The notes under the pieces are model-generated. The model saw nothing but the letters and a program-made list of their open reading frames with translations, searched no databases and was not told the origin of the DNA. A program made the position numbers and the translations under genes. 42,866 nucleotides of DNA, from contig JANYKD010000159.1 in assembly GCA_025361735.1 (NCBI GenBank), positions 1 through 42,866 of the forward strand. Reading direction: 5' to 3'. The stretch is from Phycisphaerales bacterium (GTDB lineage Bacteria > Planctomycetota > Phycisphaerae > Tepidisphaerales > Tepidisphaeraceae). Shown here piece after piece: positions 38,794 through 42,866 of this stretch; the stretch's first letter is position 1; the number at the start of each line of letters is the position of its first letter.

Positions 38794-41052
38794 CTACTGG
38801 GCGCCAAGGTAGCCATGCTCCTTGGCCGCTTCGAGCAGAGCCTTGACCACCGGGGCCGCGTCCTTGCCGCCGGCACCGCCGTACTCGAGCATCACGGCAA
38901 ACGCGATCCTGGGATTTTCGGCCGGGGCGAAACCGATGAACCAGGCGTGCGAAAGCTCGGTCCCGCCGTTGCCCGTGCCGCGATACCATGGCAGTTCGCC
39001 GTTGGGCTTCTCTCGCGTAAAGACCTCCGGAAACACTCGCTCCGGCCGCCCGCGCTCGTTGGTCAGCTCGCGTCCTCTTTCATCCCGCTTGATGTAGCTG
39101 AACTTCATCGCCTGCGCTGTCCCGGTCTTGCCACACACCGCAATATCCTGACGGCGCACATCATAACCCGAACCCGCCCGCGTGTTCACGACCTTCCACA
39201 TCCCTTCCTTCACGGCGGCCAGCGCCGCTGGATCGAGATGTAAATCCACGCGATCCTCGGTCGCCCCGGGCACGGCCGGCCCGCCGGACACAAGCTTCGG
39301 CCGCATCCAGATGCCGTCGCGGGCGATCGTCGCGGCGACGTTGGCCATCTGGATCGGGGTCGCCAGCACGTGCGACTGGCCGATGCCGCAGAACCACGAC
39401 ACCGAGCGCTGTGTGGGTCCATGATACGATCGGGGCAACTGGCCGCTCCGCTCCGGCAGCCCGATTCCCGTGGGCCGGCCCAGCCCAAAGCGATCCATCC
39501 AGACCGACAACCGCTCGAGCCCGAGTTTGTCGCCGAGCGTCTCGAAGAAAACATTGCATGACCGCTGGATGGCATCGACCAGCGTGAGAAATCCCGTCGG
39601 GTGCTCGGCCCCGTAGGGCATCTTGTGGTGCTTCACGACTTCATCGCCATATTTCGCCGCGTACTTCGACGCCGTCCAGCAGCGTCCCGAAATCGGCTGC
39701 TTCTTGCCGTCGATAATCAGATAACCCGTACACTCGATCGTGGAGTTGACGTTGATGATCCCTTCGCCGACCGCCGCGATGCCCACCAGCGGCTTGACCG
39801 TCGACCCGGGCTCCAGCGCCGCCTGCGTGGCTCGGTTGCTCAGCGGCCGGTTGATCTCGTCCAGCGCCATCTTCGCATACTGATCGTCGTAATGGTTCAA
39901 ATCGTACGTCGGATACGACACCAGCGCCCGCACCTGGCTCGTGGGAATCTCGATGACCACCGCCGCCCCATGCATCGGGTGCGACTCGACAACCACTCCG
40001 TTTTCGGTCCACTCCATCTTCGAGAACACGTTCTCGATCTGCGCCTGCAGATCCATGTCCAGCGAGATCCGCACATCGCCTCCGGGGACGGCTTCGGTTT
40101 GCTCGACGATCTCGTCGTGCCCGGCGATGCGGACCAGCCGGCCACGCACGCCCCGCAGCGTCCGTTCGCACAGCGCCTCCACCCCCGAGCGCCCGACCAG
40201 ATCCGTCGGCCGATATTGCCGCAAATCATCGCCGATGCACGGGTCGTTGTCCTGGTCCTCTTTCTTAACACCCGAGAGATTTCCAATGGTGTGGCAGGCG
40301 ACTGACTGATACGGATAGTATCGGTGCTTGCTCGGCCGCAGCTCCAGCCCGGGGTACTCCTCGATGTGCTTCTTGAGCCGGTTGTGCGTCTCGGTCGAGA
40401 TCGCCGACAGAATGACGTGCGCCTGGAACTGCTCGGCAACCTCCACGTTGAAATTGTCCAGTTCCGGCGCCGCGGAGTCGCCCGAGAGAAATTCGCGATA
40501 CCACGGCTCCTGCGTGCCGGCCGGTTCGGCGCGGTCCTTCATCGCCTGCTCGTAGCGCTTGTACCAGACCACGCGGCGGCGAAAATCCACGTGGCGGAAG
40601 ATCGTGCCCTTGATGTCCTCAATGTCCTCGCGGCTCTTGCCCGACTCCGCCGCCAGTGTGTCCCACATCACGTCGATGTCGTGCGAGACGCCGTCGGTCG
40701 CCTCCCGCACCATCTCCAGGCGCGCGTCATGGCTTGCCTTGCGATACTCGGCCGGCATCCGCTGGGCGATGCGCGCCAGCGCCATCTCGCGCATCCACGC
40801 TGGAGTCTTTTCGATGGCCCGGTAGTCGACAGCGGCGTCGATGCACGGTTCGTCCACCGCGACCACGCGCCCGCGATAATCGAGGATTCTCCCTCGAGCA
40901 GTCTCGACAAAGGTGGGTCGCTTGAGCGTTTCGCGCGATTGTTTCCGCCAGTAATCGCCGTGGACCAGTTGCAGGTTGGCCGCGCGCACAATCAGCAACC
41001 CGACGATGCCGGCCAGCAATGCGAAGAATATCTTGAGGCGACGCTCGAACAT
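38794..41052 (-). CDS. mrdA: Penicillin-binding protein 2 (elongation transpeptidase)
   Basis: A 752-residue class B penicillin-binding protein that crosslinks peptidoglycan with RodA in the elongasome. It has an N-terminal transmembrane anchor (FFALLAGIVGLLIVRA), a pedestal domain (ETARGRILDYRGRVVAVDEP) and a C-terminal transpeptidase domain. Catalytic motifs: Ser417-x-x-Lys420 (EPGSTVKPL), Ser498-x-Asn500 (QRSCNVFFE) and Lys642-Thr-Gly-Thr (CGKTGTAQA). It is about 100 residues longer than E. coli PBP2, mostly as an acidic insertion in the pedestal (about 85-200). The ATG at 41052 has no normal ribosome-binding site: the bases before it are the repeat unit TTGGAAT, whose GGA may serve. Confidence 0.95.
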   Translation of the reverse strand: MFERRLKIFFALLAGIVGLLIVRAANLQLVHGDYWRKQSRETLKRPTFVETARGRILDYRGRVVAVDEPCIDAAVDYRAIEKTPAWMREMALARIAQRMPAEYRKASHDARLEMVREATDGVSHDIDVMWDTLAAESGKSREDIEDIKGTIFRHVDFRRRVVWYKRYEQAMKDRAEPAGTQEPWYREFLSGDSAAPELDNFNVEVAEQFQAHVILSAISTETHNRLKKHIEEYPGLELRPSKHRYYPYQSVACHTIGNLSGVKKEDQDNDPCIGDDLRQYRPTDLVGRSGVEALCERTLRGVRGRLVRIAGHDEIVEQTEAVPGGDVRISLDMDLQAQIENVFSKMEWTENGVVVESHPMHGAAVVIEIPTSQVRALVSYPTYDLNHYDDQYAKMALDEINRPLSNRATQAALEPGSTVKPLVGIAAVGEGIINVNSTIECTGYLIIDGKKQPISGRCWTASKYAAKYGDEVVKHHKMPYGAEHPTGFLTLVDAIQRSCNVFFETLGDKLGLERLSVWMDRFGLGRPTGIGLPERSGQLPRSYHGPTQRSVSWFCGIGQSHVLATPIQMANVAATIARDGIWMRPKLVSGGPAVPGATEDRVDLHLDPAALAAVKEGMWKVVNTRAGSGYDVRRQDIAVCGKTGTAQAMKFSYIKRDERGRELTNERGRPERVFPEVFTREKPNGELPWYRGTGNGGTELSHAWFIGFAPAENPRIAFAVMLEYGGAGGKDAAPVVKALLEAAKEHGYLGAQ

Positions 41053-41286
41053 GGCAATTCCAAATCAGCAGATTAAACACGAAGACACGAAGACACGAAG
41101 CGAACCACGGCGGCGGTACGCCGGACGGCGAGGAAAGGTATTTCAGATTTGAAATCTGAGATTCCAAATTTCAAATTCCAAATTCCAAATTCCAAATCTG
41201 AAATCTCAAATCCGACATTCCAAATCCCGCATCGCACACCAAACCCCGCTTCGTGTCTTCGTGCCTTCGTGTTTAATCTTCCGCAT
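41053..41286. repeat. Composite repeat block between mreD and mrdA
   Basis: About 234 bp without genes in the middle of the mre operon. Outer 33-nt arms, 41070-41102 and the reverse complement of 41247-41279, match at 32 of 33 positions, and each contains three units of an ACACGAAG octamer. Between them lies a heptamer array of about 14 units from 41140 to 41237 (consensus ATTCCAA, variants ATTTCAA, ATCTGAA, ATCTCAA). Another unit is at 41057-41063, next to the mrdA start. TCAGATTT-G-AAATCTGA within it is also palindromic. Confidence 0.85.
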
Positions 41287-41802
41287 TCACGCTCGTGCGG
41301 CCCGCAGCGGCCGGAATCCGAACACGCGCTTCAACCGCACCAGCGGAAATAACACCAGCGGCGACAGCAGCGCCGTGTACAGCACCCCGCACACCGTCTC
41401 CACCACCGACGGCCCCGACGATTCCAGATGGTGCAAACGCGGATACGCCCAGTCGTTGAACAGCGTCGCCGCCGCCACGACCAGACCGGCCGCGAACGTC
41501 ACGAACATGTGCGTCAGCGGATGATCTCGCTTCACCGACGGCTGCATGCCCAGCACCACCAGCCCGGCCAGCCCGTACGCAAACGCGTGCATCCCCATCG
41601 GTTCCTGCGAGAGCAGGTCCTGAAACAACCCCAGCGCAAATATGCCCGCCAGGGCATGCTGCCGCGAGGCATTAATACAGACGAATACCACGACCGGCAG
41701 CACCAGGTTCGGCGATGCCTTGCCCCAGTTGATGTATCCCGTCAACGCCAGGTGTACGGCGAGAATCATGTACGCCAGAATTCCAAAGCTGAGCCAGCGC
41801 AT
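41287..41802 (-). CDS. mreD: Rod shape-determining protein MreD
   Basis: A 171-residue small membrane protein with five hydrophobic segments, consistent with MreD, which links MreC to other elongasome parts. GGAGGG 8 nt upstream supports the ATG at 41802 (MRWLSFGILAYMILAVHLAL) over a longer frame. The family-like segment FALGLFQDLLSQEPMGMHAF (with DLLS-x-x-PMG) is present. It lies 1 bp after mreC; the downstream distance to mrdA is enlarged by a repeat block. The sequence is divergent and the context decides. Confidence 0.88.
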   Translation of the reverse strand: MRWLSFGILAYMILAVHLALTGYINWGKASPNLVLPVVVFVCINASRQHALAGIFALGLFQDLLSQEPMGMHAFAYGLAGLVVLGMQPSVKRDHPLTHMFVTFAAGLVVAAATLFNDWAYPRLHHLESSGPSVVETVCGVLYTALLSPLVLFPLVRLKRVFGFRPLRAARA

Positions 41803-41803
41803 G

Positions 41804-42778
41804 TTATCGCCCTCCCTTTTTGACCGGCGTCGTCGGCTTCGCAGCGGCCGTGCGAGCCGGTGGCTGAACCACAGGCGCAACCCGCGCCGCGGGCCGCGCC
41901 GGCGCCGACCCCGCCTCCGTCACCACCATGACCTCATTAAGCTGCATCAGATTCAACCGCGGCTTGATCTGGATCTCCGCGAATAACGTGGCCTTCGGCT
42001 GCTTCTCGATCGACTCCACCTGCCCGATGATGAACCCGTTCACAACCACCGGCCAATCGTCCGGATCCTTCAGCACGACATAGTCACCCGCGGTCAGACC
42101 CGCATCATAGACCGCGGCCAGCGTCAGATTCGTGATCGTCAGCCGGCCGTTGCCACGCCCTTCGACGAGCGGCGGTGGACTCTTCAGCGCCGCAAACTCG
42201 ATCCCCCGGCCATCAACCGACTGCCGGAACCGGCCAAACTGCGCCGAGATACGGAACCCACGATCGGTGATGAGCCGCACGCTCGTCCCCGACGACCCAA
42301 CCGACGCCACCTTGCCGACCAGGCTGTCACGTCGCACCACCGCCTGCCCGGGCTCGAGCCCGTCGGCGCCGCCCGTCCGCAGCGTAAGCCATTCCCGCCC
42401 GGCCGCGTCGCCGCCAACCACCCGCAACGGCACCGCATACCTCTGCGCATCGCCCATCAACTCGCGGCCGGCGCTGAGCTCGCGCAGAACATCCAGCTGC
42501 GTGGTGAGCGACGCCACCTGGTTCTGCAACCGTTGAATCTCCGTCATCGCATCCGGCGACACATGCGAAACATCGAGCCCGATCACCTCAGGCTTGTTCC
42601 AGCGCGAGCTGAACGCGTGCGCCACGCGGCGTACCGGATATGAGACGGGCGTGAAGGCGCCTCGGATATCCATCCGTCCGCGCACACCCTCGCCCGCCCC
42701 CGGCGGCAACACAAACGACGCCACCCCGGCCGCCAGCATAAGCGGTATGAAAACGTGGTTAAATCGTATCCGAGCCAT
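41804..42778 (-). CDS. mreC: Rod shape-determining protein MreC
   Basis: A 324-residue bitopic protein with an N-terminal transmembrane helix (FNHVFIPLMLAAGVASFVL), a coiled coil (MTEIQRLQNQVASLTTQLDV) and the MreC beta-domain (RTGGADGLEPGQAVVRRDSL, then VGKVASVGSSGTSVRLITDR). MreC is the periplasmic scaffold of the elongasome and activates PBP2. A Pro/Ala/Lys-rich C-terminal tail (about 280-324) extends beyond the usual end. The ATG at 42778 (MARIRFNH) with GAGAGG upstream is preferred over a GTG at 42799. mreB is not in the window and probably lies just beyond it. Confidence 0.92.
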   Translation of the reverse strand: MARIRFNHVFIPLMLAAGVASFVLPPGAGEGVRGRMDIRGAFTPVSYPVRRVAHAFSSRWNKPEVIGLDVSHVSPDAMTEIQRLQNQVASLTTQLDVLRELSAGRELMGDAQRYAVPLRVVGGDAAGREWLTLRTGGADGLEPGQAVVRRDSLVGKVASVGSSGTSVRLITDRGFRISAQFGRFRQSVDGRGIEFAALKSPPPLVEGRGNGRLTITNLTLAAVYDAGLTAGDYVVLKDPDDWPVVVNGFIIGQVESIEKQPKATLFAEIQIKPRLNLMQLNEVMVVTEAGSAPARPAARVAPVVQPPARTAAAKPTTPVKKGGR

Positions 42779-42834
42779 CCAGGGCCTCTCAGGGTTCACT
42801 TGTCGGCGTTCCGGGTTCAGCCCTGCTCGGAGTA

Positions 42835-42866
42835 CCGCCTTCAGGCGGCTCTTCAGACCGCCTGAA
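42835..42866. repeat. Hairpin repeat at the window edge
   Basis: CCGCCT-tc-AGGCGG (42835-42848) overlaps a larger stem, TTCAGGCGG (42840-42848) with CCGCCTGAA (42858-42866). It lies upstream of mreC and is cut by the window end. Confidence 0.6.

Follow-up and report, generated by a model that had tools for sequence, protein, structure and literature searches.

The mreD-mrdA spacer

The window, i.e. the whole analysed stretch of 42,866 nucleotides, corresponds to contig C229 of a draft MAG of 7.5 Mb and carries an mre operon on the minus strand in the order mreC, mreD, mrdA, an unnamed ORF and rodA. The identities of MreC (41804–42799; PF04085), MreD (41287–41880; PF04093), PBP2/MrdA (38794–41052; PF00905, PF03717) and RodA were backed by Pfam matches of the window proteins. 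The start of mreD is uncertain, with the ORF running from a TTG at 41880. The repeat described in the earlier note was thereby confirmed to lie inside the mre operon beside mrdA. The distance from the mreD stop (41287) to the mrdA ATG (41052) is 234 bp and nearly all of it is repeat. Judged from its AAACACGAAG ends, the element begins 12 nt past the mreD stop and stops 22 nt before the mrdA ATG.

The element is bounded by two inverted arms of 33 nt, which are 97% complementary (32/33, as noted before) and contain three CACGAAG units at period 8 each. The left arm (41070–41102, plus strand) consists of AGATTAAA, the three units and a final CG, and it recurs in at least 43 paired copies in the genome. 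The right arm (41247–41279, minus strand) runs on inward (about 41234–41246) as the family consensus CGGGGTTTGGT. Enclosed by the arms are a left core diverged from the family core (41103–41139), a heptamer array (41140–41225) and a right core (41226–41246). The composite nature of the repeat, octamer-type arms plus a heptamer array, was thus rightly recognised. Concerning the array, the 7-nt register held over 41140–41225, fading to about 41237, but the proposed consensus ATTCCAA was restricted to its 37-bp middle (41161–41197, 93%). Since the remaining array is a mix of ATTTGAA, ATTTCAA, ATCTGAA and ATCTCAA, AATYYSR is the better consensus.

No ORF was found in the window copy, and neither a promoter nor an intrinsic terminator was detected in the spacer by consensus. 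When folded as RNA in operon direction, the spacer gave one hairpin of −121 kcal/mol compared to −65.7 kcal/mol for shuffled sequences (z −13.7).

A dispersed repeat family

The search for further copies showed that the repeat is no single occurrence. CACGAAGNCACGAAG had 223 matches in the genome (113 + 110), while the reversed control pattern had none. At least 43 paired copies with lengths of 136–554 bp, most of them 136–206 bp, make up the family, and nearly all are devoid of a recognisable gene. They have the arm AAGAAGATTAAACACGAAGRCACGAAGRCACGAAGCGGGKYYTGGT in common. Their cores are variable and strongly diverged yet homologous; in either orientation, 35 out of 496 core pairs scored higher than any shuffled pair. 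RNAalifold on the aligned copies gave support for the arm stem only. The left and right arms within a copy did not match better than arms between copies (30 versus 25 expected, p 0.14) and therefore, no arm-to-arm correction is claimed. The outer 15 nt on the left and right of the copies were not more similar than shuffled sequences, and no target-site duplication was seen in comparisons limited to diverged relatives.

Gene contexts were assigned with a simple codon-usage gene caller. None of 40 analysed copies was inside a predicted gene, and the median distance from gene 3′ ends was 24 nt. Co-oriented genes flanked 25 of the 38 classified copies, a share equal to the background (71 of 108 adjacent gene pairs); copies elsewhere in the genome were also observed at gene 3′ ends and convergent sites.

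AATYYSR heptamer arrays were present in the core of four copies (the window copy L001 as well as L002, L004 and L013), and heptamer arrays without CACGAAG arms occurred at L006, L010, L012, L015, L019, L023 and L024. Given the fact that these arrays sit in some CACGAAG cores and also alone, the window repeat is regarded as a pair of elements, with the heptamer one lying inside the CACGAAG one. The CACGAAG cores of L028, L111 and L112 contain other short palindromic repeats, so that the cores look like landing sites.

CACGAAG arms were furthermore observed around other small ORFs or unrecognised sequence in the same genome (L025:1034–1539, L114:1532–2041 and L037:1495–1830). The contents are possibly cargo or inner insertions.

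Occupied and empty spacers in relatives

The mreD-mrdA spacer measures about 6 nt in G003, whose mrdA has the highest identity among the relatives (52%). In G006, G009, G010, G011 and G016, it is 20–100 nt long and without any element. In G000 and G001, it is filled by elements of different unit types; the one in G001 contains a four-helix-bundle gene and GGACTGA heptamers. A gene-less CACAGAT hairpin is located upstream of mrdA in G014, where the contig ends and mreD is out of view. Likewise, CACGAAGG and GCACAAAGGA elements are present upstream of mrdA in G012 and G004, respectively, with a different upstream gene. At another site, two operon genes of G007 have a four-helix-bundle cassette, about 460 bp in length, between them; their counterparts in G024 of the same genus are 33 nt apart. 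As judged from these sequence comparisons, the occupied and empty sites support insertion. The case for insertion is derived from relatives that are too diverged for target-site duplications to be read, and none was seen; a near-identical pair of filled and empty sites was not at hand.

Just upstream of mrdA in G015 (L210), another kind of intergenic hairpin was observed, GGCACGGGCTTCCAGCCCGTG.

The element might, whatever its origin, be kept by selection mainly as a hairpin with a function in the operon, at the RNA or DNA level, i.e. as a processing site, an uncoupler of mreD and mrdA or an attenuator. The very stable hairpin and the 25 of 38 copies between co-oriented genes would suit such a role, but this share is that of the background, relatives manage without the element, the spacer lacks a terminator or promoter consensus and the cores diverge strongly. 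It is thus unlikely that this is what the element mainly is.

The gene-bearing copy and the GxxExxY protein

One copy (L117, contig C452) has arms of the window type 554 bp apart that enclose one intact gene for a GxxExxY protein of 130 amino acids (PF13366/TIGR04256). The gene-less copies and a GxxExxY gene hence have their arms in common. Among the inner flanks, only 15 of 72 resembled the L117 copy above the shuffle maximum.

The ORF-less cores were also considered as decayed GxxExxY genes. This was rejected as tblastn with the L117 protein matched L117 alone and revealed no remnant in the other copies.

D74, E84 and K86 are invariant across 42 GxxExxY sequences, and the structure model (pLDDT 94.5) is that of a PD-(D/E)XK nuclease. 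The nearest structural neighbour was the Cas4-like SSO0001 with a Z-score of 9.6, followed by many nucleases at 6–8 including Hjc; no sequence relative was found in the PDB. For a predicted structure, such neighbours show a nuclease fold only and not the substrate. With a dN/dS of about 0.12, one GxxExxY gene, common to G006 and G023, is under purifying selection, and many further sites of G023 match its arms. GxxExxY is rarely named in the open-access literature searched, and no description of repeat arrays flanking the family (TIGR04256/PF13366) was found in this incomplete search.

Inverted tandem arrays around two gene families

Prompted by the GxxExxY gene between the L117 arms, all GxxExxY and four-helix-bundle genes (PF05635, 23S_rRNA_IVP) of 21 genomes of the family and class were examined for inverted arms with a local-alignment score of at least 15 as strict threshold. 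Inverted arms were detected at 24 of 27 GxxExxY loci versus 0 of 513 control windows and at 29 of 40 four-helix-bundle loci versus 1 of 760. The control gene mrdA had none (0/22). The unit sequence differed from gene to gene among the relatives, yet both sides of a gene matched. The false-positive rate is well measured because the control windows were drawn from the same loci.

The association was also observed across phyla. A set of 80 GxxExxY loci, chosen from a genome collection by similarity to the query, spans about 20 phyla; the hosts include Bacteroidota, Acidobacteriota, Chloroflexota, Cyanobacteria, Proteobacteria, Verrucomicrobiota, candidate phyla and a Methanosarcinales archaeon, and Geothrix and Azospirillum are examples of cultured hosts. 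The strict score was passed by 42 of these 80 loci and by none of 1047 controls. Inward CRCNRAG arrays flanked the gene on both sides at 49 loci and on at least one side at 68, while both-side arrays were absent from the 1047 controls. Units were CACAAAG, CACCAAG, CACGAAG, CGCAGAG, CACAGAG, CGCCAAG and others, mostly with a period of 8, followed by 9, 10 and 11. The statement in the earlier note that cttcgtgtcttcgtg-type strings are scattered over several phyla proved correct, with many phyla containing them.

Four-helix-bundle loci on unrelated contigs of a viral collection passed the strict score in 22 of 27 cases (controls 0/316). Of 45 four-helix-bundle arms for which the period was clear, 35 had a period of 7, and the arms were very varied in sequence. 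In both G044 (L311) and G013 (L321), a four-helix-bundle gene is flanked by AATYYSR arrays, the heptamer of the window. Some loci of either family had no detectable arms.

Two deviations among the four-helix-bundle loci were observed. The subfamily FLxDQLNRAxxS (L164, L165, L177, L190 and L191) was without matching inverted arms or had weak GTAGAGAGT-like repeats and may represent a branch that is non-mobile or has other boundaries. In G012 (L175), a four-helix-bundle gene is located within CACGAAGG octamer arms, the only locus of 40 in which gene and arm class are clearly exchanged.

Instead of being transposon ends, the arms could have formed locally, through tandem expansion and inverted copying on either side of small genes that are tolerated as cargo. 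The four-helix-bundle genes, whose units vary strongly while the period stays 7, and the other small ORFs framed by arms (L025, L114 and L037) are in line with this. However, dispersed copies that have a 33-nt arm in common and whose cores are homologous require copying into new sites, and entire cassettes occur in one relative and are missing from another, which makes a purely local origin quite improbable.

An origin as a REP-type palindrome that is mobilised by a REP-associated Y1 transposase (RAYT) is very improbable. The genome has nine Y1_Tnp matches and, on contig C428, one of them is located about 1 kb away from a CACGAAG element. Among 20 Y1_Tnp loci from this genome and the relatives, however, none was bordered by CRCNRAG arrays on either side at once; most of these loci have G+C-rich palindromes of their own, and CACGAAG arms frame GxxExxY genes and not Y1_Tnp.

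The RAYT-like genes at L383, L384, L394, L401 and other Y1_Tnp loci, bordered by G+C-rich REP palindromes of their own, represent a third class of gene with repeat in these genomes.

The translation signal of mrdA

The leader of mrdA (41053–41069, minus strand) contains a single ATTTGGA-like heptamer, with GGA 6 nt before the ATG (gatttGGAattgccATG). The earlier note had assigned this GGA to the first heptamer of the repeat and proposed that the repeat had replaced the normal translation signal of mrdA. The GGA was indeed present, but it is outside the inverted arms and not within the repeat, and the leader is most likely the old mrdA leader. Moreover, GGA was found within 15 nt of the mrdA ATG in relatives without the window repeat (G002, G005, G010, G011 and G012) and also in G001, where the cassette has another unit; the replacement could thus not be upheld. 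G006 and G016, with their empty spacers, have no GGA within this distance.

That the repeat took over the ribosome-binding site, with translation possibly varying by heptamer copy number, has accordingly very little probability. It would be favoured by the single ATTTGGA unit and by Coxiella strains, which differ in heptamer number upstream of the S23p ORF (PMC4990558). The ATTTGGA unit, however, is no part of the heptamer array, relatives without the repeat have a GGA near the mrdA ATG or, in some cases, none, and copies elsewhere also sit at gene 3′ ends and convergent sites. A role of the element in mrdA translation is not needed to account for the data.

Origin of the repeat and comparison with known systems

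The window repeat is probably a gene-less, MITE-like copy of a GxxExxY cassette that carries a nested heptamer array and resides in the mreD-mrdA spacer. The best explanation for the parent cassette is a gene-bearing form with a GxxExxY PD-(D/E)XK nuclease between inverted CRCNRAG arrays, here CACGAAG with period 8. The nested heptamer array is best explained as the arm unit of four-helix-bundle/IVS-type cassettes, also without its gene. Like a GxxExxY-type cassette, the window copy has inward CACGAAG arrays (CRCNRAG) of three units as arms; it differs in that no GxxExxY ORF lies between them.

MITEs and small intergenic palindromes such as ERIC, Correia/NEMIS and RUP are short, gene-less and dispersed, with inverted ends as in the gene-bearing copy. 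The window family resembles them in the terminal inverted repeats, in its many dispersed intergenic copies without ORF and in ends that are also found on a gene-bearing copy of the same genome. It deviates from them as the ends are tandem arrays and not a unique terminal inverted repeat, and as the gene-bearing partner encodes the GxxExxY protein and no known transposase. No target duplication was seen in the comparison with diverged relatives. REP elements and REPtrons with RAYT are similar in that a small gene family is tied to its own class of palindromic repeat, but the RAYT loci here are found with other, G+C-rich palindromes and lack CRCNRAG arrays on both sides. Tandem heptamers in intergenic DNA have also been described from heterocystous cyanobacteria, as short tandem heptanucleotide repeats (STRR).

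Among known systems, the 23S rRNA intervening sequence (IVS) with S23p/23S_rRNA_IVP of Coxiella and Leptospira comes closest; in it, a four-helix-bundle gene is located in an inverted-repeat stem. The window shares tandem heptamers of the IVS type (41140–41225). Unlike the IVS, the window copy is intergenic and not in the 23S rRNA, has no four-helix-bundle ORF and is nested in an octamer element. In Coxiella, the ORF follows two to three tandem heptamers (GACAGAT), the number of which varies by strain, the IVS is excised by RNase III and its origin has been called unclear (PMC4990558).

Concerning the mechanism, it is proposed that the cassettes move. GxxExxY would cut or nick the arms, perhaps extruded as a hairpin, and this action would move gene-bearing and gene-less copies alike. 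In the simplest case, gene-less copies keep the CRCNRAG arrays and ride along as MITEs do. The heptamer element would have entered the octamer element afterwards. The spacer transcript should form one long imperfect hairpin that may, by analogy to the 23S rRNA IVS, be cut by RNase III between mreD and mrdA.

In a wider sense, the two small gene families might belong to mobile cassettes of bacteria and archaea that form a class not described so far, a reading that stands at about an even chance. The ends of this class would be inverted short tandem arrays, namely, CRCNRAG (period 8–11) for GxxExxY and varied heptamers for the four-helix-bundle genes. The cassettes would give rise to gene-less hairpin copies in operon spacers, and the ribosomal IVS would be one landing of the heptamer class. 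As each of the two families keeps to a single style of inverted tandem array across many phyla and intergenic places, it becomes testable whether GxxExxY and four-helix-bundle proteins act on their own arrays and whether the cassettes move. The rule may explain where ribosomal intervening sequences come from and would explain much of the short-repeat hairpin DNA in the spacers of MAGs. Such hairpins should not be taken as regulators of the next gene.

Apart from the spacer, a palindromic stretch, CCGCCTTCAGGCGG...CCGCCTGAA, was observed upstream of mreC (window 42828–42866), and a similar string ends contig C109 (L092).
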